Shown: positions 3,135 through 21,335, counted from the stretch's first letter. The stretch: DNA of 64,000 bases from Candidatus Saccharimonadota bacterium (GCA_017514025.1 JAFWLB010000003.1:186001-250000), one strand, 5' to 3'. Numbers and translations: made by a program. Notes: generated by a model from the letters alone, not told the origin.

Positions 3135-3788
3135 TCACGGGCTCGGACTCGGAGCCGGGTTCGGTACAGCCTCAAAGTTGACTACGTTCTTGTATTCGCC
3201 TGCTGCCTGAGCATTACCAGCCTTTGCCGCAATTTTGAACTCAATATTATCGCCATCCGCCGCAGTAGCCGAGCTGGTATTCTTCAAAGTAGCCGTATGA
3301 CTAGTATCACTATACAGCGGCAAACCATTATAATTAGACCAGTTGGCACCAGCGTTCACAGAAAAGGAATAGCCCCAAGTATTAGGCGTAGTAAAATCAC
3401 TCAAGCTAGCATAACTCGCATTCAGGGCAATATTATCAAAAACATTCAGCACCGGCGTCGCAGCAGCTCTATCCACGTGCCAAAGTTGATTCGTATCATA
3501 AGTAGTACTATTACCCACCGAAGCGTTCAAGGTATAACCATTTCCACTATTACTCTGCACATTCACCGTAATGATCCCACTATCACTAACAGTCCCCGGT
3601 ACCAATTCAGAAATAGTTAACCCCGTCGAAGGCACCGTCACTGACACCGACTCATTAATCGTAAACTCATTTTTATACGAAGTCGAATACTCCAACTTTG
3701 CATTCGCATCCCCCGCAACTCCCATAATCGCCCCCAATGTTATCACCAATACCCCCAAGATGCCAAAATTTTGTATACGCCTTTTCAT
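3135..3788 (-). CDS. Secreted surface protein of unknown function
   Basis: The 217 residues have an N-terminal signal peptide (RIQNFGILGVLVITLGAIMGVAGDANA) and then a Ser/Thr/Asn-rich, beta-predicted domain. Stretches such as ISELVPGTVSDSGIITVNV and a Trp-containing middle (NTWGYSFSV) recall WxL-type surface domains. The C-terminus is Pro/Ser-rich (PNPAPSPSP) with no membrane anchor or sorting signal, so it is probably released or held non-covalently. The start follows TGG-TATAAT by seven bases. It is a single-gene unit with its own terminator. The WxL comparison is weak and function is not assigned. Confidence 0.75.
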   Translation of the reverse strand: MKRRIQNFGILGVLVITLGAIMGVAGDANAKLEYSTSYKNEFTINESVSVTVPSTGLTISELVPGTVSDSGIITVNVQSNSGNGYTLNASVGNSTTYDTNQLWHVDRAAATPVLNVFDNIALNASYASLSDFTTPNTWGYSFSVNAGANWSNYNGLPLYSDTSHTATLKNTSSATAADGDNIEFKIAAKAGNAQAAGEYKNVVNFEAVPNPAPSPSP

Positions 3789-4490: not shown

Positions 4491-5162
4491 TCAATACCCC
4501 ATGAGTATTTCATTCATTTTACTGGATATTTCTGCCAATTCCCCTGTTTTTTCCTTTGTCATAATCATGAATTTCATAGGTTTATTCTTCCCACCACAAA
4601 TTTCCCTTGCGTCCCCGTAAGCCAACTCCCCTGGTATCGTAATCGCTCGAATCCCCCCAATTCTCATCCCTGTTACCCCTAAAGTCCACCCCTCAATCAT
4701 CCCTGATGATACATCCAAAATCTTCACAAACCCCGTCGGATTGCTACTGTCATCATAAGAGGAGTCAAAAATCGTCTCATCTGCGCACCACCCCACATAA
4801 TAAGCCAAATAATCGGTGTCATCCTCCCCAATCTCTCGCCCCGACCCCTCCATTAGATCCTTTGTTTCCACACCCCCCGCATTTGCCGTCGTTTCGTTAT
4901 ATCCCGTCACCTCTGACTTGTACTTAATAAAAGTATCAAAATCCTTCTGCGAAACCTCTGTAAGCTGCGACTGCAACTCCGAATATTTCTCTATATACTC
5001 CGCCAACTTCTCATTGTCCACCTCTGATGTCGACGAAGATCCCTGACTACCAGATATCACAATCGCCGCATAGCTCGCCACAATTGACCCCACCATAAAT
5101 ATCGCAATCAAAATGATAAAAAACCTCTGTTTTGGACTAGTTCTCAACTCCTTCTCTTCCAT
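4491..5162 (-). CDS. Membrane-anchored FKBP-type peptidyl-prolyl isomerase
   Basis: Predicted extracytoplasmic folding catalyst. An N-terminal anchor helix (FFIILIAIFMVGSIVASYAAIVI) is followed by a linker with a short coiled coil. The FKBP fold runs from about residue 105 to 210, with the elements YLAYYVGW, FDSSYDDS, MIEGWTLGVTGMRIGG and ITIPGELAYGD in family order. Cys residues near GWCADE and REICGGK could form a disulfide. The start is set at ATG 5162, seven bases after TGG-TATAAT. The in-frame ATG at 5171 lies inside the -10 hexamer itself and cannot be transcribed from this promoter. It occupies the place downstream of L15 where secY is usual. Confidence 0.85.
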   Translation of the reverse strand: MEEKELRTSPKQRFFIILIAIFMVGSIVASYAAIVISGSQGSSSTSEVDNEKLAEYIEKYSELQSQLTEVSQKDFDTFIKYKSEVTGYNETTANAGGVETKDLMEGSGREIGEDDTDYLAYYVGWCADETIFDSSYDDSSNPTGFVKILDVSSGMIEGWTLGVTGMRIGGIRAITIPGELAYGDAREICGGKNKPMKFMIMTKEKTGELAEISSKMNEILMGY

Positions 5163-5169
5163 ATCAACC

Positions 5170-5175
5170 ATTATA
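5170..5175 (-). promoter_or_regulatory. -10 element of FKBP gene
   Basis: TGG-TATAAT, seven bases to ATG 5162; it directly follows the L15 terminator. Confidence 0.7.
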
Positions 5176-5180
5176 CCACA

Positions 5181-5206
5181 AAAATAACCCCCAAAGGGGT
5201 TATTTT
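5181..5206 (-). terminator. Terminator at the end of the L6-L18-S5-L15 block
   Basis: AATAACCCC/GGGGTTATT hairpin with A and T tracts on both sides, just after the rplO stop. It marks the end of ribosomal transcription before any secY. Confidence 0.88.
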
Positions 5207-5674
5207 TTAGGCCTTCTTATCCACTTTTGGTCTCTTGAGAAGCGGCACTTGTTTAAAGTTCCCGCCGGCCTTCTTTATAGCTTCAACAGCTGTTTTTGAA
5301 GCAAACTGCGTCTCTAGCTCAATCTTCTTAGTGATTTCACCTCTGGTGATCACCTTCACCTTCACAAACGGCGAAGAAATCATCTGAGCTTCCGCCAAAG
5401 CATAATTATCTACCTTACCAGATAGTTCATTCAACCGATCGGTGTAAACCACCTCTGCCTTCGGGTGAATCGACTTAAAGCCCTTTAGCTTCGGCACTGC
5501 CTGCATGATAGCTCTCTGGCCGCCCATAAACCCAGCCGGCATTTTGCGATGACCAGTTCGGGACTTTTGCCCCTTGGTGCCTCGCCCAGCAGTTTTTCCT
5601 TGCCCTGCCGCAATCCCCCGCCCCTTGCGTGACGGCCGCGTATTCTTATCTACCACCAAATCATTGTATTTCAT
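5207..5674 (-). CDS. rplO: Ribosomal protein L15 (uL15)
   Basis: Large-subunit protein of 155 residues. The Gly/Arg-rich N-terminus (NTRPSRKGRGIAAGQGKTAGR) and the GFMGGQ region are typical, and it ends in a basic tail. It is the last gene of the block. L30 is absent between S5 and L15, as is general in CPR bacteria. The start overlaps the S5 stop, and its Shine-Dalgarno site is written in the KEDK codons at the end of S5. Confidence 0.96.
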   Translation of the reverse strand: MKYNDLVVDKNTRPSRKGRGIAAGQGKTAGRGTKGQKSRTGHRKMPAGFMGGQRAIMQAVPKLKGFKSIHPKAEVVYTDRLNELSGKVDNYALAEAQMISSPFVKVKVITRGEITKKIELETQFASKTAVEAIKKAGGNFKQVPLLKRPKVDKKA

Positions 5675-6381
5675 TACTTGTCCTCCTTCTTTGCGGCAGT
5701 TTTCTTCGCAGCAGGCTTTTTCACGGTAGCTTTCTCAGTCTTCTCCTCGGCCTTCTTTGCAGTAGCCTTCTCAGCCTTCGCCCCATTCCACTCATTCCGT
5801 GGAACCTGTTGCCTGAGGCCCTCAATCACCGCATAAGCAATATTCACCTTATTGGTCGACCCTAGAGATTTTGAAATCAAATTCTTCACCCCAGTAAGAC
5901 CCATAATTGCTCGCACAGTACCACCAGCAATAATCCCAGTACCTGGCGCCGCCGGCTTCATCAGCACGTCTGCCCCAGTACATTTCGTTCGAGCTTCGTG
6001 ACAAATCGTCTCGCCGTCCATGTTGAAGGTAATCATCGACTTTTTTGCTTTCGAAGTAGCCTTGGCTACCGCCGTAGTCACGTCGTTACCCTTAGCCACC
6101 CCCACGCCAATCTTATTTTTTCGGTTGCCAATCGCCACCAAAGCCTTAAACCGCATCCGACGTCCCCCGGCCACCGTCCGCGAAACTCGGTCCACCGAAA
6201 TAGTAATTTCCTCAAATTCTTTTGGCCCCGCGTCTGCCCGCACTCTATCCCGACGGTTCTTGCGCTCCATTCGCCGTCCCGAAATATCTCGGATCTGCTT
6301 GGTCGCAGCGGTCTTATCGTCCATCTTTAAAGTACCGGATTTATTAATCACTCTTGGGGCTTTTTTCTCAATTTCTGCCAT
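5674..6381 (-). CDS. rpsE: Ribosomal protein S5 (uS5) with extended tails
   Basis: Small-subunit accuracy protein. The core ITISVDRVSRTVAGGRRMRF and the TGVKNLISKSLGSTN region are clear. At 235 residues it is about 70 longer than usual, with about 55 residues before the core and a Lys/Ala/Glu-rich C-terminus. I chose ATG 6381 (MAEIEKKAP) rather than upstream in-frame starts because GGAGTT at the end of L18 precedes it. Confidence 0.95.
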   Translation of the reverse strand: MAEIEKKAPRVINKSGTLKMDDKTAATKQIRDISGRRMERKNRRDRVRADAGPKEFEEITISVDRVSRTVAGGRRMRFKALVAIGNRKNKIGVGVAKGNDVTTAVAKATSKAKKSMITFNMDGETICHEARTKCTGADVLMKPAAPGTGIIAGGTVRAIMGLTGVKNLISKSLGSTNKVNIAYAVIEGLRQQVPRNEWNGAKAEKATAKKAEEKTEKATVKKPAAKKTAAKKEDK

Positions 6382-6382
6382 T

Positions 6383-6712
6383 TTAAAACTCCAATCCTTC
6401 TTTGCGAGCCGCATCAGCCAACGCTGACATCCGCCCGGCATATAGTTTTGACCCCCGATCAAACACTACTTTTTTGACTTTTTTCGCTTTCGCCGCCTTG
6501 GCAATTTCAGCACCAAGCGCCGCAGCTTTTTCCATCATCGTGCCAGTCATTTTCTTGCCCACAGTCGTCGCGTAAGCGATTGTCGCGCCCTTGTCGTCAT
6601 CAATCACCTGCGCTACAATATGACGGTTCGAAATAAACACCGAAAGGCGTGGCTGCTCTGCCGTACCATGAATCTTGGCACGAGTCCGCTTTGCTCTAAA
6701 AACCTTGTTCAT
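6383..6712 (-). CDS. rplR: Ribosomal protein L18 (uL18)
   Basis: 5S rRNA-binding large-subunit protein. It has 109 residues with the motif RTRAKIHGTAEQPRLSVF, then ISNRHIVAQVIDD and the C-terminal FDRGSKLYAGRMSALADAAR. It starts at the stop of L6 and runs to S5 without a gap. Confidence 0.96.
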   Translation of the reverse strand: MNKVFRAKRTRAKIHGTAEQPRLSVFISNRHIVAQVIDDDKGATIAYATTVGKKMTGTMMEKAAALGAEIAKAAKAKKVKKVVFDRGSKLYAGRMSALADAARKEGLEF

Positions 6713-7246
6713 TTACTTACCCGCCTTTCCTGCCTTACGAAGAATCACTTCGTCGACATATTTAATACCTTTACCCTTGTAAGGCTCTGGCTTCTTCAAA
6801 CTCCGGATTTCTGCCGCCACCTGACCAACTTTCTGCTTGTCAATACCAGAGACGGTAATTTCCATCTTGTTGGTTGTGAGCTGCACACCTTCCGGCGCGT
6901 GATATTTCACCGGATGTGAAAACCCTAACGCCATTTCGATATCTTGTCCGCCCCCAGACAAACGAAACCCTACACCGTTTACTTCTAGTTTTTTCTCAAA
7001 TCCCTTTGTCACGCCCACTACGGCATTATTCAGCAATGCTCGTTGCAAACCGTGCCAAGCCCGGGATTTTGGCTCGTCATCCTCACGGGTGACGGTCGCA
7101 ATATTTCCATCTACAGCCACCTTTGTCTTGGGCTGCACCGGGACTACAAGTGACCCCTTCGGGCCCGCGACAGTAATCTCACTCTCGCCGACCGTAATTG
7201 TCACTCCCGCCGGAATCTCGATGGGTTGTTTTCCGATACGACTCAT
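6713..7246 (-). CDS. rplF: Ribosomal protein L6 (uL6)
   Basis: Large-subunit protein of 177 residues with MSRIGKQPIEIPAGV at the start and the conserved KPEPYKGKGIKY near the end. It normally follows S8 directly, but here S8 ends at 15423 and five unrelated genes lie between. L6 has its own promoter (7279-7307) and AAAGGG as Shine-Dalgarno site, so this block is an independent transcription unit. Confidence 0.97.
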   Translation of the reverse strand: MSRIGKQPIEIPAGVTITVGESEITVAGPKGSLVVPVQPKTKVAVDGNIATVTREDDEPKSRAWHGLQRALLNNAVVGVTKGFEKKLEVNGVGFRLSGGGQDIEMALGFSHPVKYHAPEGVQLTTNKMEITVSGIDKQKVGQVAAEIRSLKKPEPYKGKGIKYVDEVILRKAGKAGK

Positions 7247-7278: not shown

Positions 7279-7307
7279 ATTATATCACAGATTGCTCAAA
7301 AAATCAA
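7279..7307 (-). promoter_or_regulatory. Promoter of rplF-rplR-rpsE-rplO
   Basis: -35 TTGATT (7302-7307), 17-base spacer, TGA-TATAAT (7279-7284). It gives a leader of about 25 nt. It supports the split ribosomal operon being expressed as two units. Confidence 0.8.
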
Positions 7308-7308
7308 A

Positions 7309-7932
7309 TTATCTATTATCATTTTGCACATAGATATAATTATAGTCATTCAAACTATACCCCCTCGCCTCAAGCTCCCCCCTTACTGCATCCAATGTTT
7401 CGTCTGTCAATTCCGGCCGCCGCCCGTTAATCACCAAACATCTCTCGCCCCCACATTTCGCCTCCCGATCATAATATATTGCAATCGCATCGCAATTCGT
7501 TCGTTTCGCCGGCACTCCACAAATCGAAAGCTTCAGAGGCATTATCTCCGCAATTGCATTTTTTTGTTTCAACTCTTCCATCGTGTATAATCGCCATCCG
7601 TCATCTTCCGTCCATTGCAAATACAACCCCGTCGTCTGATTTTTCACCAAATTCAAATCCACTATCTTCGGCTCCAACTCACCCAGTTGCACCGTCGCTG
7701 TATATGCCCCCGGCTCCATCTCGTACACTGCATTTGAAGCATACTCTTGCCCGCCAATTTCCACCTTTGCTTCTACCGGCTCCATCATTATGTCCAAATA
7801 TGCCGGCTTCCCCGAATAATTCATAAGCGGCAATACCCCTAAAAATATCACTAGCGCCAATACCACCCCAGCTCCGAATATCACCCCAATCTTTACATAA
7901 AAATTACTTACTTCTCTATCTCGCTGCGCCAT
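7309..7932 (-). CDS. Single-pass anchored protein, paralogue of 7916-8608
   Basis: The 207 residues have one N-terminal anchor helix (IGVIFGAGVVLALVIFLGVLPL) and an outside domain. Early residues EVSNFYVKI are cytoplasmic. The C-terminal part has paired Cys (ICGVPAKRTNC, KCGGERC) and ends GYSLNDYNYIYVQND. That resembles GYNPDDYQIKIPEFC of the upstream gene, so the two share a domain. ATG 7932 has GGAG seven bases upstream and overlaps the previous gene by 17 bases. No family recognised; it is probably made with the wall hydrolase in the same operon. Confidence 0.8.
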   Translation of the reverse strand: MAQRDREVSNFYVKIGVIFGAGVVLALVIFLGVLPLMNYSGKPAYLDIMMEPVEAKVEIGGQEYASNAVYEMEPGAYTATVQLGELEPKIVDLNLVKNQTTGLYLQWTEDDGWRLYTMEELKQKNAIAEIMPLKLSICGVPAKRTNCDAIAIYYDREAKCGGERCLVINGRRPELTDETLDAVRGELEARGYSLNDYNYIYVQNDNR

Positions 7933-8608
7933 CACAAAACTCCGGTATTTTAATTTGATAATCGTCTGGGTTATAACCCAATGACTTTATCCATTCCTGC
8001 ACTTCCTCCCTAGCATTCACCGCCACGGCTTCATTCCCGCAAGCACTCACTCGCACATTCAAATATTCCTCACCTGTTTCCTCTCGCGCCAAAGTCACCG
8101 TCACTAGCTCCCCACTCGCCAGATTAAAATAATACGGCAATTCTCGCCCCACCGTCACCGTCATAGTTGAGGTTTTTTCTCCCCTACAATAAGTCCCTGA
8201 ATATTTCATCAAACTCGGCACCGGACAGTCCACCACCGGCGATTCATAAAAACCCTGCCCTTTCATTAGCGCAAACGACACTTCATAGGTAGCTTTTAAG
8301 TCGTCCACGTCAATCAAAAAATCATAATTCACCACATCGTTTTGCACTACCCGCTCAAACGAACTCGGGCGGATCAGCACCTTTAGCCCAACAGTCTCGT
8401 CGCTAAGTCCGTGGTTATTCTTCAAACTCTGCCAAATAAATCCCTCTAGCTCGCTCACCTCGCTACTAGATAATCCACTCTCCACCTGGTCAATGTTATA
8501 TAAATCCAACTTTTTTTGATGTAGTAATACCCCCAACACCGCCACCAAAATCACCACCACCACCCCCGCCGCCAAACTAATTAAAATTATTCTTTGATTT
8601 TTCATCAT
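7916..8608 (-). CDS. Single-pass anchored protein of unknown function
   Basis: The 230 residues have one N-terminal transmembrane helix (ILISLAAGVVVVILVAVLGVLL) and an extracytoplasmic domain with Cys residues (VDCPV, TYCRGE, SACGNE, PEFC). The ATG overlaps the stop of the 820-residue hydrolase gene (ATGA), so translation is coupled. It shares a C-terminal pattern with the downstream gene 7309-7932. It may be a partner of the hydrolase; this is inferred from coupling only. Confidence 0.8.
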   Translation of the reverse strand: MMKNQRIILISLAAGVVVVILVAVLGVLLHQKKLDLYNIDQVESGLSSSEVSELEGFIWQSLKNNHGLSDETVGLKVLIRPSSFERVVQNDVVNYDFLIDVDDLKATYEVSFALMKGQGFYESPVVDCPVPSLMKYSGTYCRGEKTSTMTVTVGRELPYYFNLASGELVTVTLAREETGEEYLNVRVSACGNEAVAVNAREEVQEWIKSLGYNPDDYQIKIPEFCDGAAR

Positions 8609-11067
8609 TTCAACCTAAATACCCTAAAATCATTATCATAATAGTTGCCAATATCGCCCGACCGTTCACAGTGCGACGCCGCCGCAATATGTGGCTCACC
8701 ATTTACCTCCACATACAATTCTATATGATTTGGCCCAATTCGTATATCCCCTGGTTGCAAATTCCCTAGGCCATTTGATACTTCCTGATACTTCCCAGAT
8801 GACAAAATATAGCTCAAAGTCGCCCCACCCGTAATTCCACAGCAATAGAAATCTGGATCTGCCCCCGAATAACGCATCACCGTCGTCACGAACGCATCAC
8901 AGCTCCCGCCCGCCATCGAACAGGCATCGCCCAACTGGTTTACACCCGTCTCTACCAAAGCCTTCGCATAAGCTGGATTAGGATCGCTCCACCCATGTTG
9001 GCCATATTCACTCGCCGGCCAAGCCAGCTCAATTGCCGTCGCATTAACATCACCATTACCGCCACTCGATGCACACGCTGCGTCATAACCACCGCTCCGC
9101 TCAATCGCCGCATCTATATACTGCCAAATATTCCCCGGATCTTTATGGTCATTCGCCGGTGCATGCATATGCCCCAAAATCCCCTCGTAATTTGTAAACG
9201 CCTCTGGACTAAGTCTCGCCGCACTTTTACCCCATACCACGCTCGACGTCAACGGCACACCAGTTTTTTCCGAAATTGCTCGGAGTAGCGTCACCAAGTA
9301 ATCCCAATCCTCTTCCGAAAAGTTATTTACATCATATTCTGACGTATAGCCACTACTCGTCGGGTCCGAAAACCCTACAATCTCAACCTGAATCGGCCCA
9401 GCTTGGTCATAATCTTTAATCGCCAATGCCGGCTGGTCAATCGAAAAGTTCTGATATCCTTCCCGCTTTTTTAGATCCACAATAAAGTGCGCCGGATACT
9501 TATTGCCCGCCGGATAAGCGTCATAACCATTAGTCGTACCCTCAGTTGTATGTAGCAAAATCTTATTCGGCTTACCATCCTCCGTCGTATAGCTCCCCGC
9601 CGCATTCACCGGTTCATTCAAATCTCCTGCACCATTTATGTCCTGCTTCTTTATTCCCTCAATCGAATCATCTTCTAGCCAACCATCACTCCATTTCGCG
9701 TTCGAAGCCGCTGTCTCGCCACATCTACAAACATCCGTACCTCTACCGTGATAATTGCCAAATTCCTTCACAATTGCTTGTCCTTCTGACGAATCCACAA
9801 ACGCTTGCAAGGCATCCACTGACTTCTTCATCGCCTCAATCGAACCATAACCCGCCCCATTAATATCTCCCTGCACCCAAGTCGGGCCAATCGCCTCCAA
9901 ATATTCCTTCGGGTCAGCAACCCCAATCGCCTGGTCATGATAGCCATTAGTCAAAGTTTCAGCATACTGCACAAACCCTTCGCCCAAATTCTCACCTTGT
10001 TTGCTCGCTCCCCCCGCCCCCGTTCCAGGCGGGCAACCATTCCCCCAAAAGTTGTTTTTACCACATACCGAATCCGGATCTTCATATCGCATCTGCACCA
10101 AAATTGCAATCCATGGCGCCCCCACCACATCCCCCAACTGATATGCCAAATCGCCGTAAGTCTCCACCAACTGCTTCATCGACGCCGTATCCGTATCTGA
10201 CCACCTAGCACTCGGCACATCACCCGATCCGTTGAAAAAGCTCTTGTCTGCATTTTTCGCGCTTAATATTTTCGCAAAATTTCCCGTCCCAGCAATCTTG
10301 CCACTGCTAGTCGTTTTAACCGGAAAAGCATTGTAAATTGTCTCAACCCATTTTTCGTAACCACCATTACTTACCGGATGAATACTATCCTCTGCAAAAT
10401 AACTCGGATCCGACACCGCCGCCCAGTCCGCCAAATAATAATTGTCTTCTTCGTTTACCAACCGCCTCAATCTTTCATTACTTTCCGTATAATCACTATT
10501 TGCGGTTTTAGACGTCACCACTACCACTTTCGTATCCCTCGCCCCCGACAAAATCTGCTTTAATTCCGCAATCGACTCGTTCGACCATCCCTCATTTGTC
10601 CCTACCGCCATCACTAACCACGGTTTTAGTTCTCCCGCTGTCACAACTCGCTTTAGCACATTTAATGCCGACGGGTTTGTCGGGTTCGCATTACAATCTG
10701 TATCCATCGCCACATTTTTGCAAGCCTGAATCGTTGAATTCGCATCATTCACCGACCCCCCAAACGAAATTCCCGGAAAACTCGCTTCAATCAAAGCTTG
10801 CGCGCCCGTCGAATAGGAATCCCCAATCCAAGTAATCTCATCACCACTAGGCCGCGAACTCAACGTATCACTATTCAGACATTCCGACGGATCATAATAC
10901 AAAATATTATTCTGCGAAAACTCTTGCATCTCCGCCGGCGCCAACCGCCCCGTTGTTAGATTCTTTTTTGCTGCGTTCGCATTATTCGTCATCACCACCA
11001 AAAACAAAACCACCAGCACCAGCGCTCCTAGCGCCAAAATCCGTCCAAAGCCAAAGCGTTTGACCAT
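8605..11067 (-). CDS. Secreted multidomain peptidoglycan hydrolase (SGNH, glucosaminidase-like, amidase_2, NlpC/P60-like)
   Basis: The 820 residues begin with a signal/anchor helix (residues 9-26). Domain 1, about 75-250, is SGNH-hydrolase-like: GDSYS with Ser84, GTNE at 156-159 and DSIH at 227-230 complete the triad. Domain 2, about 290-440, resembles a glucosaminidase, with Glu329 in MRYEDP and NNFWGNG. Domain 3, about 495-655, is an amidase_2 fold with zinc ligands likely His506, His633 or His635, and Asp643 (HKDPG). Domain 4, about 695-820, is NlpC/P60-like, with Cys723 (SCDAFV) and His781 (NHIELYV). It would cut or deacetylate glycan strands and peptide stems outside the cell. Whether the target is its own wall or a host's is open. 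The promoter at 11077-11082 leaves about two bases of leader. The glucosaminidase call is the least certain. Confidence 0.85.
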   Translation of the reverse strand: MVKRFGFGRILALGALVLVVLFLVVMTNNANAAKKNLTTGRLAPAEMQEFSQNNILYYDPSECLNSDTLSSRPSGDEITWIGDSYSTGAQALIEASFPGISFGGSVNDANSTIQACKNVAMDTDCNANPTNPSALNVLKRVVTAGELKPWLVMAVGTNEGWSNESIAELKQILSGARDTKVVVVTSKTANSDYTESNERLRRLVNEEDNYYLADWAAVSDPSYFAEDSIHPVSNGGYEKWVETIYNAFPVKTTSSGKIAGTGNFAKILSAKNADKSFFNGSGDVPSARWSDTDTASMKQLVETYGDLAYQLGDVVGAPWIAILVQMRYEDPDSVCGKNNFWGNGCPPGTGAGGASKQGENLGEGFVQYAETLTNGYHDQAIGVADPKEYLEAIGPTWVQGDINGAGYGSIEAMKKSVDALQAFVDSSEGQAIVKEFGNYHGRGTDVCRCGETAASNAKWSDGWLEDDSIEGIKKQDINGAGDLNEPVNAAGSYTTEDGKPNKILLHTTEGTTNGYDAYPAGNKYPAHFIVDLKKREGYQNFSIDQPALAIKDYDQAGPIQVEIVGFSDPTSSGYTSEYDVNNFSEEDWDYLVTLLRAISEKTGVPLTSSVVWGKSAARLSPEAFTNYEGILGHMHAPANDHKDPGNIWQYIDAAIERSGGYDAACASSGGNGDVNATAIELAWPASEYGQHGWSDPNPAYAKALVETGVNQLGDACSMAGGSCDAFVTTVMRYSGADPDFYCCGITGGATLSYILSSGKYQEVSNGLGNLQPGDIRIGPNHIELYVEVNGEPHIAAASHCERSGDIGNYYDNDFRVFRLK

Positions 11068-11076
11068 ATACTATAT

Positions 11077-11082
11077 ATTATA
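11077..11082 (-). promoter_or_regulatory. -10 element of the wall-hydrolase operon
   Basis: TGG-TATAAT nine bases before ATG 11067. It begins directly after the T-tract of the upstream gene's terminator. Confidence 0.7.
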
Positions 11083-11085
11083 CCA

Positions 11086-11112
11086 AAAAGACCCCCATTT
11101 GGGGGCCTTTTT
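11086..11112 (-). terminator. Terminator of 11131-12867
   Basis: GCCCCC/GGGGGT-type stem with a four-base loop and five T on the minus strand; the tract runs into the next promoter. Confidence 0.88.
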
Positions 11113-11130
11113 GCGTTTGTTATCAATTGT

Positions 11131-12867
11131 TTATTTTCTTCTCACCAATACTGCGAAGCCGACAATTGCTGCAATCACACCTACTGCCGCCGCGGTCAAG
11201 ATTGATGCCGCTGCTGCCGATGCCCCCGCCGCCGTCACCGTCCCCGTATCCGGCGTCGCCGCTGCCGCAGCTTCTTCGGTTTCATTCACGCCTACCACAC
11301 CATAAGTCGACAAATGCGTCGTAGTGAATTCAATCCAATACCAACCATTATCGCTAAAGAGTTCTGCATCTAATCTTTCAACTTCATTTCCGTCCTCATC
11401 AAAGTATACTACTTGAATCTTATCATATGCTGCCAACGCATTGTAATCTTCTTCGCTCAAATCTATATAGACCCTCAAATCATTGTCTTTCACCTCAATC
11501 CTCGTCCCATCGCGATCCACCATGTCAATGTCTAGAGCCATCAACAAATCCCCGTCATTAACCAAGCTAAAACCGCTCAAATCAGTTTTTTGGGAAGCTA
11601 CCAAACTCGCCCTATGATCAGCAACTAATGAACCGTTAAAATCTACATAGGCCGCATAATCATCATTGTACAATTCCTCCAGCCAATCACCTTGCCAATC
11701 TATATTAATTGGCACAATCTCATAAACGCCACTACCCTCATAAGTCTCTTCAGCCTCATGTCCAGGCTCAATCTCATCCGCAGACGGCGCTACTGCATAC
11801 TCGCCACCCGAAATGACAATCGTAGGATTATTCGTGTAAACTCCATAACCACTAGCCGGCGTCGCCACAATATCAGTCACATAGGCACTTTCAACAGCTT
11901 TAGCAAAAGTACCGCCAGTAACATTCACGTTCATTTCCTGTTCAACTTTCCCCATGTCATAAACCATCACCGCTTTGCCAGTCGAGTTCGCCACGTTGAA
12001 AGTACCACCAGAAATATTAACATTCAAAGAGTTACCATAGGTCGCATTATCACTAGTATAAGTACCACCAAGCACAGTCAGTGCATCTGCCATCCAGGCC
12101 ATCCCACTATAATTGTAATAATCGGCCATAGGATCGATATTAGAGTCCTTGCTAATCGCATTGATCGTCCCACCAGAAATGCTAATCTGGCCCATTCTTA
12201 CAGTTACACCACCATTCAAAGTTCCATTAGAAATGTTCAAATTCACTTGCCCCGGCATATAAATCGTCTGTACTTCTGAATTCAACGTCCCACCACTAAC
12301 GTAAAAATTCATATCACCAGTGGTGTTGTTGCCGCTCAAACAAGCACCATAATAAGTGTTAATCGTTCCGCCACTCACATAAGCCGATGCGCCGTCTAAG
12401 GCATAAACCCCATATGCAGAACCATTTACTTCGTTAGCGTTGATAGTACCACTCTGCATCGAAAACCTAGCGCTACTACCCTCGACCATTATCGCCGCAT
12501 TAGTCGCCGTCATCGTGGTAGTCAAGGCTCCGCCCTCACCACTATCACTCATGGTGAACAATCCACCAGTAATATCGAACAATGTCCCACTAGCGGTCAC
12601 CGTATGTCCAGCTAAATCAAAATTGACATCTTTGTTTGACGTTATCATGGCAGTCAAACCAAAATCATCGCCAAGTGTAACCGTGCCTACATTCGGATTA
12701 GCAAAACCATCAAGCAGCTCCGTATAACTAGACGCAATACAAGCCGAACCTTCATAATCCTTCGTGCACGCATCTCCATCTGCCCACGCCCCTGACGGCA
12801 CAAAAAGACCCGCTCCAACAGCCAAAGCTGCCACCGGCAAACCATATAACACTTTACGTTTAACCAT
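11131..12867 (-). CDS. Beta-helix surface protein with TPDTG sorting-like tail
   Basis: The 578 residues have a signal peptide (about 1-29). Residues about 60-370 form a repetitive region in which the motif [VI]SGGT plus beta-strand residues recurs about eight times, typical of right-handed beta-helix adhesins. A Glu/Asp-rich globular part follows. The C-terminus has TPDTG at residues 538-542, a hydrophobic helix and RRK, the order seen in cell-wall sorting signals. It is probably displayed on the cell surface. Shine-Dalgarno GGAGG and the promoter at 12893-12921 fix the start. It sits inside the ribosomal protein cluster. Confidence 0.82.
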   Translation of the reverse strand: MVKRKVLYGLPVAALAVGAGLFVPSGAWADGDACTKDYEGSACIASSYTELLDGFANPNVGTVTLGDDFGLTAMITSNKDVNFDLAGHTVTASGTLFDITGGLFTMSDSGEGGALTTTMTATNAAIMVEGSSARFSMQSGTINANEVNGSAYGVYALDGASAYVSGGTINTYYGACLSGNNTTGDMNFYVSGGTLNSEVQTIYMPGQVNLNISNGTLNGGVTVRMGQISISGGTINAISKDSNIDPMADYYNYSGMAWMADALTVLGGTYTSDNATYGNSLNVNISGGTFNVANSTGKAVMVYDMGKVEQEMNVNVTGGTFAKAVESAYVTDIVATPASGYGVYTNNPTIVISGGEYAVAPSADEIEPGHEAEETYEGSGVYEIVPINIDWQGDWLEELYNDDYAAYVDFNGSLVADHRASLVASQKTDLSGFSLVNDGDLLMALDIDMVDRDGTRIEVKDNDLRVYIDLSEEDYNALAAYDKIQVVYFDEDGNEVERLDAELFSDNGWYWIEFTTTHLSTYGVVGVNETEEAAAAATPDTGTVTAAGASAAAASILTAAAVGVIAAIVGFAVLVRRK

Positions 12868-12892
12868 AAATAACCTCCATTTATTACTTATG

Positions 12893-12921
12893 ATTATAGC
12901 GTTTAGAAAAGCTTAAGTCAA
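12893..12921 (-). promoter_or_regulatory. Promoter of 11131-12867
   Basis: -35 TTGACT (12916-12921), 17-base spacer, TATAAT (12893-12898). It gives a leader of about 19 nt containing the Shine-Dalgarno site. Confidence 0.82.
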
Positions 12922-12933
12922 GCTTAAAAACCA

Positions 12934-12965
12934 CAAAAACGCCACCCCTGTTAAACAGGAGTGGC
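12934..12965 (-). terminator. Terminator of 12989-15307
   Basis: GCCAC-CCTGT/ACAGG-GTGGC stem with one mismatch, loop TTAA region, then a T-rich tract on the minus strand. Confidence 0.87.
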
Positions 12966-12988
12966 TCACCATATATAATATATGGTTA

Positions 12989-15307
12989 TTATTTGCGGCT
13001 TCTAGCAAACTTCACCGCTCCAGCCAGCATCACTGCTGCACCCAGAGTAGCTACCGCCATCAAACCACCCATACTGGCACTTGCTGCATTGCCAGAATTC
13101 TCAAAATCCGTAAACACGCCCGTATCCGGTGTGATGATCGGATCCAATACATCCTCATAGGCGATTGCATAAATCGAGAACCCATCCGCATCATAAGTTA
13201 CCACATGATTCACTGCATCGTAATGCACCGCCCCGTCTGGCAACAACTCCGCCTGCCCATTGTGGTATCGTGCCACACGCCAATGTCGCGTAAGCCCGCT
13301 TCTTACCGGATTCGCTTCATCAATCTCACTCACATCGGCATTCACCGTCAATGCCTCACCCAAATCAGTAAACTGTCCAATCGGCAAATATCCATTTAGT
13401 TCATCAACCAACACCTGCGGCCCCCACATGCCATTTGCCAATATATACGCTCCCACACTATAGAACTTCGTGCCTTGTCCACCCAGCAAATTCCTCAATT
13501 CTTCAAAAATGGTCAAATATTCTTCATCATCATAGTAGCTATATTCACCTTCCTCATATTCCGACTCATCTAGCTCCCAAGTCCCCAAAATCGCCTTCAC
13601 ATCGCTACCATTCCGGAACATACTTTCGAAGTTATTGTACCAGAGGAAACCGAGATAATATCCAAAATTAATTTTCGTTCCATCCGTCAAAGTCATCACG
13701 CAATCTTCATCGTTATCACAGTAAAACCCGTCGAACAACATTCGCTTAATTATTTCGTCAGTGTATTTTTCCAAAATTGTCTGATTGCCAGCTTTAGTAT
13801 TCTCTACATCGTTCACGTCATCCGAAGCCCAATCTTCCGCACTATAATCATAAAACAATACATGCGTGTGTGCATCAAAATCCTGTCCGTTCTCATCCGT
13901 CAAAGTAAACACCAAACTAATATTCGGGAACTTTCGAGTAAATGTATCGTCACCCATCTGCATCTCTTCCGACGGGATCGAATTTGCTGCCAAAGTATAA
14001 GAACCATCACCATTATCCGTCAAAGTCGCAGCTGCCGTCGCATCGCCACCCTCCGATGCCACGCCTACGCCCGTCACCGTATAACCATCTTCTACATCCA
14101 AAGTAAAGGTCTGGCTAGTCCCCACTCTTTGTGCCCAAACCATGTCTTCGCTACCAATGTTGATCACTGCGCCAGTCAAAGTCACATCTTCATTATCCAG
14201 CGTAAACGAACTACCGTCAAAACCCGTAATTACGGTGCCATTTTTCATTACGAAACCGTCACCATCCTGATGCGTATCATCACCGTTAACAAACACCGTA
14301 ACTTCCGTCCCTACTGGCAACAAAGCTGCTTCAGTGTATGTTTCGTTATTAGCGCGAAAAGAAATTTCCCCACCAGCTACCTCACCAATCTTCACAATCT
14401 GGTAATTCTCAGTGTCTTCTCTCTCAAATGTCCCCTCAATCGAAGAATTCGCCAAATCAGTAATCGTCAAAGTCGCGCTATCTTCAATCACCGTCTTGCC
14501 TGCTGGGATCGTCAAAGTAGCCACCGTCATGTCATAATTCACATAAACCGTGTCAACTAACCCTAACGCCTCAGTCAAAGCATCAGCACTCAAGGCATAT
14601 ACATCAACGTCACCATCTGCTACATCCATCCAGTAATCCATTCCGCTCGCCAATACATAGTCAACCCCTTCACCAACTGCTGCCACTGTTGCCAAACCAT
14701 CCTCCACAGATGTCCCCTCTGCCAAGTGCACCACTATCCCATAAGTATCACTGTGATTAACGGTTATCGCAGAATCATTAACCGCCACCGTTGCGGTATC
14801 ATTGTTCAAACTCATATAATTGCCCAACGCTGCCAATACCGACGTTCCTGCCGGCAAATGCACTACGACATTGTCATAGTTTATCGAATATCCATCCGGC
14901 AAACTATTATTAGTATTTGTCACTACATAATCCCCCGCCGCCGGAGTTAACGCTACTGTTTCGTTATAACTAGTCATCAAACCAGACAACCAAGTAACAT
15001 TTTCGTCTGAAAACACATCCGAAATTGTTGCGTTAATTGTGGAATTGCTAGCATAGGTGCCATACCCATACCCAGCATTATGCTCAAACGCATATAGCAT
15101 GTCCCCGAGCTGACCAACTGTACCACTAAAATTGATCGTAGATACCGCCTCATTCATTACACAAAGCGTCCCACCATTAATATCAACTGCCCCCTCGTTG
15201 ACAGTGCAAGCTTCTTCTGCGTGCACTTTTCCCGGCACCACCACCGCACCAAAAGCTAGCACTAGTGCCGAAAAAACATAGCCTAGCCGTTTTATGGTCT
15301 TACCCAT
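12989..15307 (-). CDS. Large secreted surface protein with TPDTG sorting-like tail
   Basis: The 772 residues have a signal peptide (to about residue 30, KVHA), then long acidic beta-rich regions with many Asn/Thr/Asp. A Cys pair (FYCDNDEDCVM) lies in the second half. The C-terminus has TPDTG at 726-730, a spacer of about 16 residues, a hydrophobic helix and ARSRK, matching its neighbour's tail. Shine-Dalgarno AAGGAG lies before ATG 15307. I see no clear -35 and -10 pair. It is probably a surface adhesin or S-layer-like protein; no known domain recognised. It is the first gene after S8. Confidence 0.8.
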   Translation of the reverse strand: MGKTIKRLGYVFSALVLAFGAVVVPGKVHAEEACTVNEGAVDINGGTLCVMNEAVSTINFSGTVGQLGDMLYAFEHNAGYGYGTYASNSTINATISDVFSDENVTWLSGLMTSYNETVALTPAAGDYVVTNTNNSLPDGYSINYDNVVVHLPAGTSVLAALGNYMSLNNDTATVAVNDSAITVNHSDTYGIVVHLAEGTSVEDGLATVAAVGEGVDYVLASGMDYWMDVADGDVDVYALSADALTEALGLVDTVYVNYDMTVATLTIPAGKTVIEDSATLTITDLANSSIEGTFEREDTENYQIVKIGEVAGGEISFRANNETYTEAALLPVGTEVTVFVNGDDTHQDGDGFVMKNGTVITGFDGSSFTLDNEDVTLTGAVINIGSEDMVWAQRVGTSQTFTLDVEDGYTVTGVGVASEGGDATAAATLTDNGDGSYTLAANSIPSEEMQMGDDTFTRKFPNISLVFTLTDENGQDFDAHTHVLFYDYSAEDWASDDVNDVENTKAGNQTILEKYTDEIIKRMLFDGFYCDNDEDCVMTLTDGTKINFGYYLGFLWYNNFESMFRNGSDVKAILGTWELDESEYEEGEYSYYDDEEYLTIFEELRNLLGGQGTKFYSVGAYILANGMWGPQVLVDELNGYLPIGQFTDLGEALTVNADVSEIDEANPVRSGLTRHWRVARYHNGQAELLPDGAVHYDAVNHVVTYDADGFSIYAIAYEDVLDPIITPDTGVFTDFENSGNAASASMGGLMAVATLGAAVMLAGAVKFARSRK

Positions 15308-15393
15308 TTTATCACTCCTTCGTTTATAATACCCTCATCATACTCCACCAAACCCCCAAATGCAAGCATGAGCGTCTTTCATTTTACCCAAAC

Positions 15394-15419
15394 AAAAAAG
15401 ACCCCGTAGGGTCTTTTTT
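15394..15419 (-). terminator. Terminator after S8
   Basis: AGACCC/GGGTCT hairpin with six T on either side. It lies three bases from the rpsH stop and ends the L3-S8 transcript before the inserted surface genes. Confidence 0.9.
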
Positions 15420-15422
15420 GTT

Positions 15423-15824
15423 TTACCATACTTTCACAAGTATTTCGCCACCAAGACGGTTTTTCTTAGCCTCACGCCCAGTCATCAAACCTTTCGAAGT
15501 AGATACGATCACCATCCCTCGTCCAGATTTCACCACCGGCAAATCGTTCGCCGACGAATACACCCGGCGACCCGGCTTGGAAACTTTCGAAATCTCGTTG
15601 ATCTTCGCTACCGTGCCCGGCTCAAAAATCGTCACTTTCAGCATCCCCCGCGGAGATCCCTCAATCACTTCATAGCCAGCCACATAGCCGTTCTTCTTCA
15701 AAACTTCCGTTACGCCTACCTTGAGTTTAGAAGTAGGCACCAGGATTTCATTTTTACCAACCATCACCGCGTTACGAATCCGTGTCAGCAGGTCAGCAAT
15801 TTGGTCTGTAGATTGTAATGACAT
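15423..15824 (-). CDS. rpsH: Ribosomal protein S8 (uS8)
   Basis: Small-subunit protein binding 16S rRNA helix 21. It has 133 residues, with DQIADLLTRIRNAVMVGK at the start and the C-terminal STSKGLMTGREAKK region. ATG 15824 is chosen over an upstream in-frame start because AAGGAG precedes it. It is the last gene of the upstream ribosomal block; L6, the usual next gene, is 8.2 kb away. Confidence 0.96.
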   Translation of the reverse strand: MSLQSTDQIADLLTRIRNAVMVGKNEILVPTSKLKVGVTEVLKKNGYVAGYEVIEGSPRGMLKVTIFEPGTVAKINEISKVSKPGRRVYSSANDLPVVKSGRGMVIVSTSKGLMTGREAKKNRLGGEILVKVW

Positions 15825-15838
15825 TTTTCTCCTTTCTC

Positions 15839-16108
15839 CTACCAACTACTCTTTGTTACACCCGGAATTTCGCCTTTCGACGCTTTCTCCCGGAAATTAA
15901 TACGACTCAGTCCAAACCGGCGCATATATCCTCTCGGTCGCCCATCCAACATATCGCGATTCTTCAGACGCGTTGGAGACGAATTGCGCGGCAACTTCTG
16001 CAAACCTTCCAAGTCACCTGCCGCTTTGAGAGCCGCCCGCTTGTCTTTATATTTGTCGTACATTTTTTGCCGTTTTTCGTCACGGAGCACTGCAGATTTC
16101 TTCGCCAT
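15839..16108 (-). CDS. rpsN: Ribosomal protein S14 (uS14), zinc-free type
   Basis: The 89 residues include [32 protein letters not shown] and KSSW at the end. No CxxC zinc pairs are present, so this is the long, zinc-independent form. Its Shine-Dalgarno site lies in the KEDK codons at the end of L5. Confidence 0.96.
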
Positions 16109-16717
16109 CTACTTGTCCTCCTTCTCAAACGGCATTCCAAAGAGTTCTAGCAATTTTAGACTTCCTTCCTTTGAGCCATTTTTAATAATAAACGTAACTT
16201 CCAGCCCGTGCAAAACCGAAGCGTCCTCAAAAGTAATCTCCGGGAACACAGTCTGTTCTTTCAAACCTAAATTATAGTTACCTTGCGCATCAAATGCTGT
16301 TCGCGAAACTCCGTGAAAATCCCGCACGTGCGGCAATGCCACATTGATCAACCGATCCACAAATTCATACATTTTATCATTACGCAAAGTCACCAAATAT
16401 CCAATCGGCGCCCCCATCCCTTTTCGAATCTTAAAAGTCGCAATGGATTTTTTAGCTAGTCGCGAAGTCGGCGCCTGACCAGTAATCTTGGCAAGCGTCA
16501 AAGCCACCGTTTCGGTAAACCGTTTGTCCTCGCGCTTCTTACCTACACCACAAGATACCACGACTTTTTTCAGTTCCGGTACTTGCGAAATGTTCTCCAG
16601 CTTTAATTCTTTTTGCAATTCCGCCTTCAACTCTGTGTTATAGAGAGCCTTCAGGCGTGGTTGTACTGCTTCAGTTTTTGCGGACTTCTTAGCAGTAGCC
16701 GTTTTATTTTCCGCCAT
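16109..16717 (-). CDS. rplE: Ribosomal protein L5 (uL5)
   Basis: Large-subunit 5S rRNA-binding protein. It has 202 residues, about 20 longer than usual owing to a Lys/Ala-rich N-terminus. Conserved parts are VPELKKVVVSCGVGK, ITGQAPTSRLAKKSIATFKIRKG and VTFIIKNGSKEG. It overlaps L24 by one base and ends in KEDK. Confidence 0.96.
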   Translation of the reverse strand: MAENKTATAKKSAKTEAVQPRLKALYNTELKAELQKELKLENISQVPELKKVVVSCGVGKKREDKRFTETVALTLAKITGQAPTSRLAKKSIATFKIRKGMGAPIGYLVTLRNDKMYEFVDRLINVALPHVRDFHGVSRTAFDAQGNYNLGLKEQTVFPEITFEDASVLHGLEVTFIIKNGSKEGSLKLLELFGMPFEKEDK

Positions 16718-16989
16718 TATTTAGCTCCTTTCTTTGCCTTAGCATTCTTTTTCTCAAACTTCGCCGCTTCGACCAACTTCAGATTTGAAAAGTCAATCCC
16801 TACGTGAATTTTCTTCTTCCCGCCTTTAGGATTAAACTGGGTTTTGCGCATATGACGCTCTACTATCCCAATTCCTTCCAGCATCGCTTTGCCGTTCAGG
16901 CGGTCAATTTTCACGATTTTAGCTTCTTTACCCTTATTGTCGCCAGCAATTACTTGCACTTTGTCGTTTACTTTCAAACTCTTCGCCAT
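16717..16989 (-). CDS. rplX: Ribosomal protein L24 (uL24)
   Basis: Large-subunit assembly initiator. It has 90 residues with the KOW motif VNDKVQVIAGDNKGKEAKIVK and GIGIVERHMR, and a basic C-terminus. It is tightly packed between L14 and L5. Confidence 0.96.
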   Translation of the reverse strand: MAKSLKVNDKVQVIAGDNKGKEAKIVKIDRLNGKAMLEGIGIVERHMRKTQFNPKGGKKKIHVGIDFSNLKLVEAAKFEKKNAKAKKGAK

Positions 16990-16990
16990 C

Positions 16991-17359
16991 TTAAAGTACC
17001 TCCGGTGCTAAGCTGATAATCTTCATAAAGCCCTTGTCACGCAGTTCCCTAGGAATCGGCCCAAAAACCCGCGTCCCCTTCGGCATCTTGTCATCGTTGA
17101 CCAGTACTGCCGCGTTTTCGTCAAACCGAATCGTCGAACCGTCCGGCCGCCGAATCGGTTGCCGAGTCCGTACGATTACTGCACGTACAATAGCTTTTTT
17201 CTTTACGTTGCCGTTCGGAGTTGCTTCCTTAACCGAGCAAGTCACAATATCACCTACTCGCGCATAGCATGCCCTAGTACCGCCCAGTACTCGAATTACT
17301 CCAAGTTCCTTTGCGCCACTGTTATCGGCCACTTTCAACCTACTCTCTTGCTGTATCAT
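16991..17359 (-). CDS. rplN: Ribosomal protein L14 (uL14)
   Basis: Large-subunit interface protein, 122 residues, starting [29 protein letters not shown] is near the end. Standard length. Its Shine-Dalgarno site overlaps the S17 C-terminal codons. Confidence 0.97.
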
Positions 17360-17752
17360 TTATTTGTCCTCCCCTTCTGGCTTTTCAGCTTTAGCGTCGG
17401 TTTCTTCCACTGCAGCCTTCTCTGCTGCTCGGCGAGCTCGCGCCTCTGCATCTGCGCCTACTTTTTCTGCTTCGTAAGCCTTGTTTACATCTTCCTTCAG
17501 TTCTACAACGCCACGCGATTTTTCAATCACCTTTACCAAAGTATAAGCTTTGGTCTTGGAAATCGGCTTCGACATCGCAATCTGCACTCGGTCACCCACG
17601 TGCGCTTCATTTTTTTCGTCATGCGCCGTGTATTTCCGCGTCTTCGAATATTGCTTACGATAGAGCGGGTGTGTTTCCCGACTGACAATGGAGACGGTAA
17701 TGGTCTTATCACGCTTGTCAGAGGTAACAGTCCCAATGAGTGTGTGTGCCAT
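17360..17752 (-). CDS. rpsQ: Ribosomal protein S17 (uS17) with long acidic/basic tail
   Basis: Small-subunit protein. The core (LIGTVTSDKRDKTITVSI, HDEKNEAHVGDRVQIAMSKPISKTK) ends near residue 85. A further 45 residues rich in Ala, Glu and Lys follow, to 130 in all. The gene directly follows L16 with one base between, so the usual L29 gene is absent here. The tail does not look like L29. Confidence 0.95.
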   Translation of the reverse strand: MAHTLIGTVTSDKRDKTITVSIVSRETHPLYRKQYSKTRKYTAHDEKNEAHVGDRVQIAMSKPISKTKAYTLVKVIEKSRGVVELKEDVNKAYEAEKVGADAEARARRAAEKAAVEETDAKAEKPEGEDK

Positions 17753-17753
17753 C

Positions 17754-18173
17754 TTAAAACTCCTCTTTCTTAATTATTTTACATTTCACTGGCAACTTAT
17801 GTGATGCTAGTCGCAGAGCTTCTCGTGCTTTTTCTTCGTCCACATCGGCGATCTCAAACATCACCGTGCCAGCTTTCACCTTTGCTACGTAAAACTGCGG
17901 TTCACCTTTACCGGAACCCATCTTTACATCAAGCGGCTTCTTACTCACCGGCGTATGCGGGAAAATCCGAATCCAGATTTTACCACCACGCTTCACGTAA
18001 CGCGTAATCGCCTGACGTGCAGCCTCGATCTGACGCGAAGTGATTCGTTCGTTGTCTAGTGACATCAAACCGAATTCACCAAACGCCACCGTATTACAAC
18101 GAGTTGCAATACCTTCATTTTTGCCTTTACGCACCTTGCGATGCGGAGTTTTTCTTGGTACTAAAATTGCCAT
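17754..18173 (-). CDS. rplP: Ribosomal protein L16 (uL16)
   Basis: Large-subunit protein near the A site. It has 139 residues with [42 protein letters not shown] and [15 protein letters not shown]. Standard length. Followed immediately by S17. Confidence 0.97.
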
Positions 18174-18174
18174 C

Positions 18175-18801
18175 TTACTTTTCCCCCTTATAAATCCAAA
18201 CTTTTACACCTACGATACCGGCAATAGTCGGAGCATGATGACAGTAGAAATCAATATCCGCTCGGAGAGTATGTAGAGGCACGGAACCTTCAATAAACTT
18301 CTCCCGTCGGCTCATTTCTGCACCATTCAACCGCCCAGCTACCTCGATCCGCACGCCTTTCGCACCGGCGTTCATCGATGACTGCAAGGCCATCTTCACC
18401 GCCCGGCGAAAATTCATCCGCTTACCGAGTTGGAACCCGATATTCTCAGCTACCAATTTGGCGTTTAATTCTGGTTTCTTTACTTCTTCGACATTAATCC
18501 GAATCGGACCGTCGACAATTTTTTCAATCTGCTTTTTCAGCTCATTGATACCCGAACCTTGTTTGCCAATCACCGCCCCAGCTTTTGCCGTTGCAATCGT
18601 GATCGTGGTCAAATTAGCCGAGCGCTCAATGTCAATCCGCGCAATCGTCGGACGAGCCTTAAACCGCTCTTCGATAATCTTGCGAATTTTGTCGTCTTCA
18701 ACCAGCCAGTGACGAAAGTCAGACTTTCGCGTAAACCACTTCGAGGACCAGTCCTTGCTGACTTGGAGACGGTAAGAGATGGGATTAACCTTTTGACCCA
18801 T
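18175..18801 (-). CDS. rpsC: Ribosomal protein S3 (uS3)
   Basis: Small-subunit mRNA-entry protein. It has 208 residues starting [12 protein letters not shown], with a KH domain around [15 protein letters not shown] and the C-terminal [23 protein letters not shown]. Shine-Dalgarno AAGGAG lies at the end of L22. Confidence 0.97.
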
Positions 18802-18802
18802 A

Positions 18803-19222
18803 TTACTTTTTCTCCTTCGCTTCTGCCTTCTTGTCGGCCTTCTCGGCCTTCGGGGCAGTCTTTTTTACTTTCTCTTCGCCTGCGACCTCAACAAAAATGT
18901 TGGACGAAATCTTTTCATACGGAAGTGCCCGACCCCTAGATGCCGGCTTATACCGCCGCATCCGAGTCCCGCTGGTAACGAAAATTCGTGCAATCCGAAT
19001 TGTCTTCGGATCAATCGACTTACCTGAATTATTTAGCAAATTTGCATTTGCCGATTCAATCGCCTTCAGTACCGGACGCGCAGCTTTTCTCGGAGTATGC
19101 TCCAAGATTACTTTCGCATCAGCTACATAGCGATCACGCACCAAAGCTGCCACGACATTCGTCTTTCGCGGTTGGCTATCCACACCTTTAGCATATGCAT
19201 GCGCAAAATATGTTTCTGCCAT
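18803..19222 (-). CDS. rplV: Ribosomal protein L22 (uL22)
   Basis: Large-subunit exit-tunnel protein. It has 139 residues with SQPRKTNVVAALVRDR, LKAIESANANLLNN and RMRRYKPASRGRALPYEK. The last 25 residues are a Lys/Ala/Glu-rich tail that the usual protein lacks. Confidence 0.96.
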   Translation of the reverse strand: MAETYFAHAYAKGVDSQPRKTNVVAALVRDRYVADAKVILEHTPRKAARPVLKAIESANANLLNNSGKSIDPKTIRIARIFVTSGTRMRRYKPASRGRALPYEKISSNIFVEVAGEEKVKKTAPKAEKADKKAEAKEKK

Positions 19223-19225
19223 ATC

Positions 19226-19513
19226 CTAACCCTTTCCTTTCGCAGCCTCAGCGGCTTTTTTACCACCGTGTCGGCGGAACTTACGTGTAGGCGCAAACTC
19301 ACCCAGCTTATGACCGACCATGTTTTCCGAAATATAAACCGGTACGTGCACCTTGCCGTTATGCACGGCAATCGTCCGACCCACCATCTCCGGTGAAATC
19401 GTCGAACTGCGCGCCCAAGTTTTAATTACGGTGCGATCTTCGCTGGAAAGAGCAGCGACCTTCTTTGCGAGTTTGTAGTCCACAAACGGACCTTTTTTCA
19501 GACTCCTAGACAT
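19226..19513 (-). CDS. rpsS: Ribosomal protein S19 (uS19)
   Basis: Small-subunit head protein. It has 95 residues with [37 protein letters not shown] and [17 protein letters not shown]. It overlaps the L2 stop by one base. Confidence 0.97.
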
Positions 19514-20349
19514 TATCTCCTCTTTCCTTCGTGGCGACTGCGCACGATCATTTTATTAGTTTTCTTATTCCGACGTGTACGATAGCCCAAAGTGAGCTGG
19601 CCCCACGGCGTCCTCGGCGCTTTGCCCGATCCGTGTCGACCACCGTCGCCACCACCGTGCGGGTGATCCGCTGCGTTCATCACAACACCACGTACGGTCG
19701 GACGAATGCCTTTGCGACGCTTCCGACCGGCTGAGCCAATCTTCACATTTTGATGCTGCACGTTGGACACAGTACCAATCGAAGCTTCACACTTCACTAA
19801 TACTTTTCGTACTTCACCTGATGGCATCTTCAAAGTTGCATAAGCTCCTTCTTTTGCCATTAGCTGCGCTGAAGCGCCTGCCGCTCGCACCATCTGAGCG
19901 CCTTTGCCAGGATTTAGCTCAATCGCATAGACGAAAGTACCAACTGGGATATTTTCTAGTGGCATCCGGTTAGAAGTCTCCACTTCCACCTCCGCCCCGG
20001 TTTTAAAAGTTGTACCCTTCGTCATCTTGGTATCAGCAATCACATAATAATATACACCGTTTTCGTCTTTGACCCGCGCAATCCGTGCGCTTCGGTTCGG
20101 ATCGTATTCGATCTCTTCTACCGTAAAAGTCAAATTCTGCGGTAATTTATAAGTAATAATCCGATAGTGCCGCTTCACCCCGCCCCCACGGTGTCGCACC
20201 GTAATCCGACCTTGGTTATTTCGCCCTGCTTGCTGCTTTTTGCTAGCTAGCAAAGATTTCATCGGCTTCTTCGTCGTAATTTGATCGAAATCCTGCGTCG
20301 TCTTTTGACGCTGAGCCGGAGTCATTGGGCGATATTGTTTAATAGCCAT
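19513..20349 (-). CDS. rplB: Ribosomal protein L2 (uL2)
   Basis: Large-subunit protein at the peptidyl-transferase region. It has 278 residues with [19 protein letters not shown], the universal [13 protein letters not shown] loop and a basic end. Normal length. The start overlaps the L23 stop with KEDK codons as Shine-Dalgarno site. Confidence 0.97.
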
Positions 20350-21334: not shown

Positions 21335-21335
21335 A

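Follow-up and report, generated by a model that had tools for sequence, protein, structure and literature searches.

The capsule (cps) loci of Gram-positive bacteria lie at a constant position, as in the pneumococcus, where cps is found between dexB and aliA. Ribosomal gene clusters broken by non-ribosomal genes are also known, mainly as single insertions between operons (bfd-bfr between str and S10; tusDCB between rpoBC and str). The replacement islands of aquatic bacteria carry genes for O-chain, capsule or giant surface proteins, and the O-chain island of SAR11 (Pelagibacter) includes its only ribosomal RNA operon; selection on the cell surface has been proposed as the driver of these islands (PMC4033161). 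Here we analyse a stretch of 64,000 nucleotides, referred to as the window, from a Candidatus Saccharimonadota bacterium (GCA_017514025.1 JAFWLB010000003.1:186001-250000), in which the spc ribosomal-protein operon is parted between the genes for S8 (uS8) and L6 (uL6). Throughout this genus, the S8-L6 junction is probably the fixed address of a flexible genomic island of the replacement type that serves the cell envelope, with a mechanism of exchange that we infer. The space is occupied by sortase-anchored proteins, by wall-hydrolase modules or by Wzy-type capsule cassettes. From species to species these change, while the ribosomal junctions nearby remain closed.

As in SAR11, interchangeable surface clusters occupy a fixed core-gene address with translation genes as neighbours, and homologous replacement has been proposed (PMC4033161). 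Unlike the SAR11 island, this address lies within a ribosomal-protein operon, which is split into two transcription units, and its contents alternate between anchored proteins and capsule genes. The evidence for recombination also differs, consisting here of comparisons between species and one scar, and there of strain-level peaks of single-nucleotide polymorphism. The likeness to Gram-positive cps loci lies in a Wzy-type set with Wzz/tyrosine-kinase, CpsB and LytR-CpsA-Psr (LCP) proteins, swapped as a cassette between conserved flanks. However, ribosomal-protein genes form the flanks here, in many species anchored proteins or no genes at all lie between them, and the window has no capsule genes at this place. 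The interruption of a ribosomal gene cluster is shared with the single insertions mentioned above, but here it is probably a site of recurrent exchange, and it is inside spc. The type of system, replacement island or capsule locus, is thus a known one; what is new is the address and the accompanying split of the spc operon. To our knowledge, this would be the first ribosomal-protein operon shown to be a surface-cassette locus; our literature search, which left most subscription journals outside its reach, returned no paper describing one.

S8 and L6 were located in 120 relatives, and the genus is represented by 46 genomes, the window's included, with both genes on one contig. All are drafts and most are metagenome bins. 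Within the genus the distance between S8 and L6 ranges from 18 bp to 55 kb: seven of the 46 sites are empty or nearly so (18-168 bp) and 39 are filled (1.1-55 kb), each insert lying exactly between the two genes, the constant position expected of a replacement island. In G002, G016, G022, G031 and G060 the contig runs for tens of kilobases past S8 without L6, so the two genes are truly far apart there; an S8-L6 value of 570 in four genomes in which the genes are separated is an artefact of sequence joining. The first-pass annotation of the window had held that S8 and L6 are normally contiguous, and nearly everywhere outside the genus they are. About 40 genomes from other families of the order have the two genes side by side. 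In the sister genus of the same family (G127) the spacer is 22 bp, with no promoter visible, and in each of the 71 named loci that lie outside the genus and allow a measurement it is at most 272 bp. No genome measured has an opening at any junction from L3 to S8 or between L6 and L18; S8-L6 is the one open junction among the ribosomal junctions measured. Comparison with relatives, which the annotation had suggested as a check, thereby reveals a split that is genus-wide and hypervariable. Draft bins, with several contigs ending inside the locus, might suggest a misassembly or binning artefact at the junction. This is scarcely credible, because the insert is carried by many independent genomes: in 39 of them it lies on one contig, with the same edge terminator and promoter and with shared gene families, and the window itself is the middle part of a 281-kb contig, with its junction in the interior.

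The contents of the inserts, taken from gene calls and Pfam, appear to be mostly of surface-exposed function and are very diverged or unrelated between genomes. Sortase-type proteins number 28 in the inserts of 20 genomes and reach 1,833 amino acids (aa), some with Big_2 domains. Other contents are Wzy-type capsule cassettes, with Wzz/kinase, CpsB, LCP, Wzy and sugar enzymes. The cassette of G051 brings together a chain-length regulator/kinase, CpsB, an LCP protein, a polymerase and glycosyltransferases, the combination that defines a Wzy-type capsule locus, and a 504-aa multi-membrane protein without a Pfam match suggests a flippase. CpsB/CapC is found in 31 of the 120 genomes, all of this genus, and coordinate comparison places CpsB at the S8-L6 junction in about 14 of the 31. 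Open reading frames (ORFs) of at least 80 aa in the inserts run mostly in the ribosomal direction (211, with 25 opposed).

On a tree built from 16 ribosomal proteins of 49 genus members and six outgroups, the content classes, which were assigned by the analyst from clusters and Pfam, require a minimum of 21 state changes; for the empty state alone, seven are required. G005 and G065 are close sisters, yet one is filled and the other empty, with an 18-bp spacer. The ribosomal proteins of G047 and G051 are 98.2% identical, whereas their junction Wzz/kinase proteins are 64.4% identical, as distant as in unrelated members, and DNA similarity between the two inserts is confined to the shared end genes. 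Among the capsule carriers, identity of the junction Wzz/kinase is not tied to core identity (rho 0.19), compared with rho 0.68 for L6 plus L18 against the other ribosomal proteins; these coefficients are descriptive only, since genome pairs are not independent. A single ancient insertion inherited by descent is ruled out by close relatives of which one is filled and one empty (G005/G065, G032/G071), together with the unrelated contents. The two L6 copies of G010 were considered as within-strain variation and dropped, the copies differing by 10% in a bin with about 5% contamination.

In the window, whose genome is of 679 kb and 97% complete, the canonical spc order in which L6 directly follows S8 is broken by about 8.1 kb with five ORFs, all on the minus strand like the ribosomal genes. 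The ORFs confirm the coordinates given to this split by the first-pass annotation. In the direction of transcription, the features are as follows.

15839-21956, minus strand: L3-L4-L23-L2-S19-L22-S3-L16-S17-L14-L24-L5-S14, the uninterrupted upstream block (ORFs; junctions closed in all relatives measured)
15423-15824, minus strand: S8 (uS8), last gene of the upstream transcription unit (ORF; Pfam Ribosomal_S8 match)
about 15390-15423, minus strand: predicted intrinsic terminator directly 3' of S8 (fold -21.7 kcal/mol, z -7.2)
12989-15307, minus strand: predicted secreted protein of 772 aa with a C-terminal TPDTG sorting signal (ORF)
12941-12965, minus strand: predicted terminator 3' of the 772-aa gene (z -5.2)
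12893-12921, minus strand: predicted promoter of the 578-aa gene, TTGACT-17-TATAAT, closest to the consensus within the region (11 of 12)
11131-12867, minus strand: predicted secreted protein of 578 aa with a TPDTG signal, family c7 (ORF; family clustering)
about 11082-11116, minus strand: predicted terminator 3' of the 578-aa gene (z -4.3)
8605-11067, minus strand: predicted secreted hydrolase-like protein of 820 aa, with an SGNH-like part, Amidase_2 and other, unproven parts (ORF, Pfam, PDB)
7916-8608, minus strand: N-terminally anchored protein of 230 aa, of no known family (ORF)
7309-7935, minus strand: N-terminally anchored protein of 208 aa, of no known family (ORF)
7279-7307, minus strand: predicted L6 promoter, TTGATT-17-TATAAT with the TG of an extended -10 (motif search)
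6713-7246, minus strand: L6 (uL6), first gene of the downstream unit (ORF)
5207-6712, minus strand: L18-S5-L15, the remainder of the downstream ribosomal unit (ORFs; order kept in relatives)

The 772- and 578-aa proteins both end in TPDTG, a hydrophobic stretch and a basic tail, as the earlier description of two TPDTG surface proteins had it. With these tails they have the marks of sortase-anchored surface proteins, and the genome encodes two sortases above the Pfam cut-off. The likeness of the 772-aa protein to other junction proteins is limited to its C-terminal part; c7, the family of the 578-aa protein, is the most frequent at the junction among relatives. The 820-aa protein had been called a four-domain wall hydrolase, which holds in part. 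Amidase_2 matches weakly (E 1e-4, 23 bits, below the 26-bit Pfam cut-off) and the SGNH-like part has a marginal match to an acetyltransferase in the PDB (E 0.044), but a profile search of PDB sequences gave no match for the second domain and the fourth had been proposed from a reading of the sequence alone. The hydrolase gene overlaps the 230-aa gene at 8605-8608 and the latter overlaps the 208-aa gene at 7916-7935, so that these three look like one unit and the insert comprises three transcription units, not five. The claim that each inserted unit has its own promoter or terminator is good for these three units and fails if applied to each of the five genes, the last three of which overlap. 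Relatives of the hydrolase are located at other loci than the junction. In G009 the hydrolase and the two-gene unit stand together, in the same order, at another locus, where the homologue of the 230-aa protein, beside the hydrolase, is 45% identical and that of the 208-aa protein 37%. Because the same trio is found elsewhere in G009 and the 578-aa family is the commonest at the junction, the hydrolase-230-208 unit looks like a newcomer in the window. CpsB was found nowhere in the window's genome.

Signals in the DNA point to a division of the operon into two transcription units, by a terminator after S8 and a promoter before L6, both of which had been annotated at first pass and were recovered. 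The S8 terminator was shown by folding; a simple terminator scan overlooks it because its T-run forms part of the stem. A terminator-like hairpin follows S8 in 40 of the 41 sites with a spacer of more than 100 bp, compared with 37 of 140 control windows inside inserts. The core of the L6 promoter, TGTGNTATAAT, occurs 14 times in the window, where 0.11 occurrences are expected by chance, and is therefore a genuine recurrent promoter motif. Its sites include 3796, 4466, 5170, 7279 and 22143, and one of them is upstream of the L3 block; as a strong extended -10 motif of this organism it is usable for annotation. Of the 46 genus genomes, 45 have a -10 box at 29-46 bases before L6. The exception, G065, has a spacer like that of the sister genus. 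Since most of the empty sites also have the box, the promoter before L6 seems to have come first and the insertion later, as far as an order can be read from the present state of the sites. The locus had been described as settled rather than recently disrupted. This is true of the split, which is genus-wide and has its own signals, but not of the contents, which differ between species and include empty sites, capsule loci and relocated housekeeping genes.

A mechanism for the formation and turnover of the island may be proposed. The L6 promoter would arise first, and with it the junction would tolerate insertion without starving L6-L18-S5-L15 of transcription. Cassettes could then be replaced by homologous recombination via the conserved ribosomal flanks, the incoming DNA probably being taken up by natural transformation, and selection on the exposed surface, by the host bacterium, phage or animal immunity, would keep turnover high. 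By analogy, such surface selection is the likely driver. ComEC is present in the window's genome, and natural transformation through flanking homology has been demonstrated in a cultured saccharibacterium (PMC10633639). The insert of G026 contains a second S8 3' end, comprising the last 27 codons and the stop, between a surface gene and the capsule cassette. This end is 87% identical to the genome's own S8 and is followed by a different terminator. The simplest account of this likely recombination scar is that the capsule cassette came on the DNA of a different species that likewise had it behind S8. A search of the other inserts for remnants of S8 or L6 gave only a marginal 45-bp match, in G027. 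In the pairs that were compared, identity also falls over the final 300 bp of S8; we do not press this as proof of recombination, since S8 may just be a fast-evolving gene.

That very different cargo occupies one constant site might point to an integrative mobile element or site-specific hotspot, with an integrase that targets the S8-L6 spacer. In G027, a 68-bp sequence stands at both ends of the 55-kb insert (L168-L170), after S8 and again before L6, although this may be a dispersed repeat of that genome. However, the integrase gene and edge attachment repeats that mark an integrase-driven (additive) island were not found: not one of the insert proteins scanned with Pfam, which were a part of the total, was an integrase, transposase or relaxase, and, G027 apart, no genome had a repeat common to both insert edges beyond promoter words. 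We regard an integrative element as very unlikely.

Several observations weigh against a replacement island dedicated to the envelope. Just one recombination scar was found, in G026, and the genome comparisons are all between species. CpsB identity follows core identity to a degree (rho 0.60, again a descriptive value). Sisters G007 (L045) and G070 (L162) have a rpoB-rpoC block with LeuRS, NusB and RNase III between S8 and L6, making the junction a breakpoint for housekeeping rearrangements as well; genes for ornithine carbamoyltransferase, DcuC and arginine deiminase are found in the inserts of G013 and G050, and some inserts hold proteins of no known kind. In G161 and G126, of two distant families of the phylum, the S8-L6 link is broken without a surface cassette being seen: the genes are on different contigs with other genes beside them, apparently through independent breaks of the junction.

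These non-surface contents in several genomes, the separate breaks in G161 and G126, and the presence of the L6 promoter even at most empty sites would suit neutral operon decay. In such a scheme, the junction became an ordinary intergenic landing site once L6 had its promoter, surface genes are merely the commonest variable genes, and the flanks play no special part in exchange. The first two of these observations leave a neutral landing site some probability, but we consider it unlikely. Other spaces are not comparably variable in eight relatives, for example that after L15, where the next gene encodes the same FKBP-type protein in seven of the eight examined. Furthermore, the contents are strongly skewed to envelope genes, almost half of the CpsB-bearing genomes carry CpsB at this one junction, and the scar in G026 points to transfer from junction to junction. 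The replacement island is our preferred reading. A more specific version of it, in which the spc operon is a maintained exchange site and naturally competent episymbionts pass capsule and adhesin cassettes from species to species with ribosomal genes as the recombination arms, is put forward tentatively.

Few gene orders are as conserved in bacteria as that of the S10-spc block; here one junction inside it is highly variable. The genus consists of tiny episymbiotic Saccharibacteria, for whose surface-gene variation a ribosomal operon is a surprising place. The genes at the junction probably have a bearing on attachment to the host bacterium, on sensitivity to phage or on visibility to animal immunity. 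The question of how an episymbiont changes its surface becomes testable. With its conserved flanks, the S8-L6 locus should be easy to amplify for tracking capsule and surface-protein variation in uncultured Saccharibacteria. The locus also suggests a route by which an essential operon may be opened, promoter first and insertion after.

Some further features of the ribosomal region may be recorded. In the window, L15 is followed by the FKBP-type protein (4491-5207) and not by secY. In G127 (L273), a 470-aa multi-membrane protein that fits SecY, and then more ribosomal genes, come after L15; G027 has a similar protein of 472 aa. Downstream of the FKBP gene in the window is that of a secreted protein of 217 aa (3135-3788); five of the eight relatives checked have diverged homologues (31-53% identity) at a similar position. 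The near relatives include Saccharibacteria bins such as RGIG2252, from goat duodenum. Most genomes of the genus have about 4 bp between L16 and S17 (17753-17754 in the window). The outgroups, and also G027, G032, G034 and G071, have 205-271 bp there, enough to accommodate a small gene, for example that of L29, which most members of the genus may have lost or relocated.

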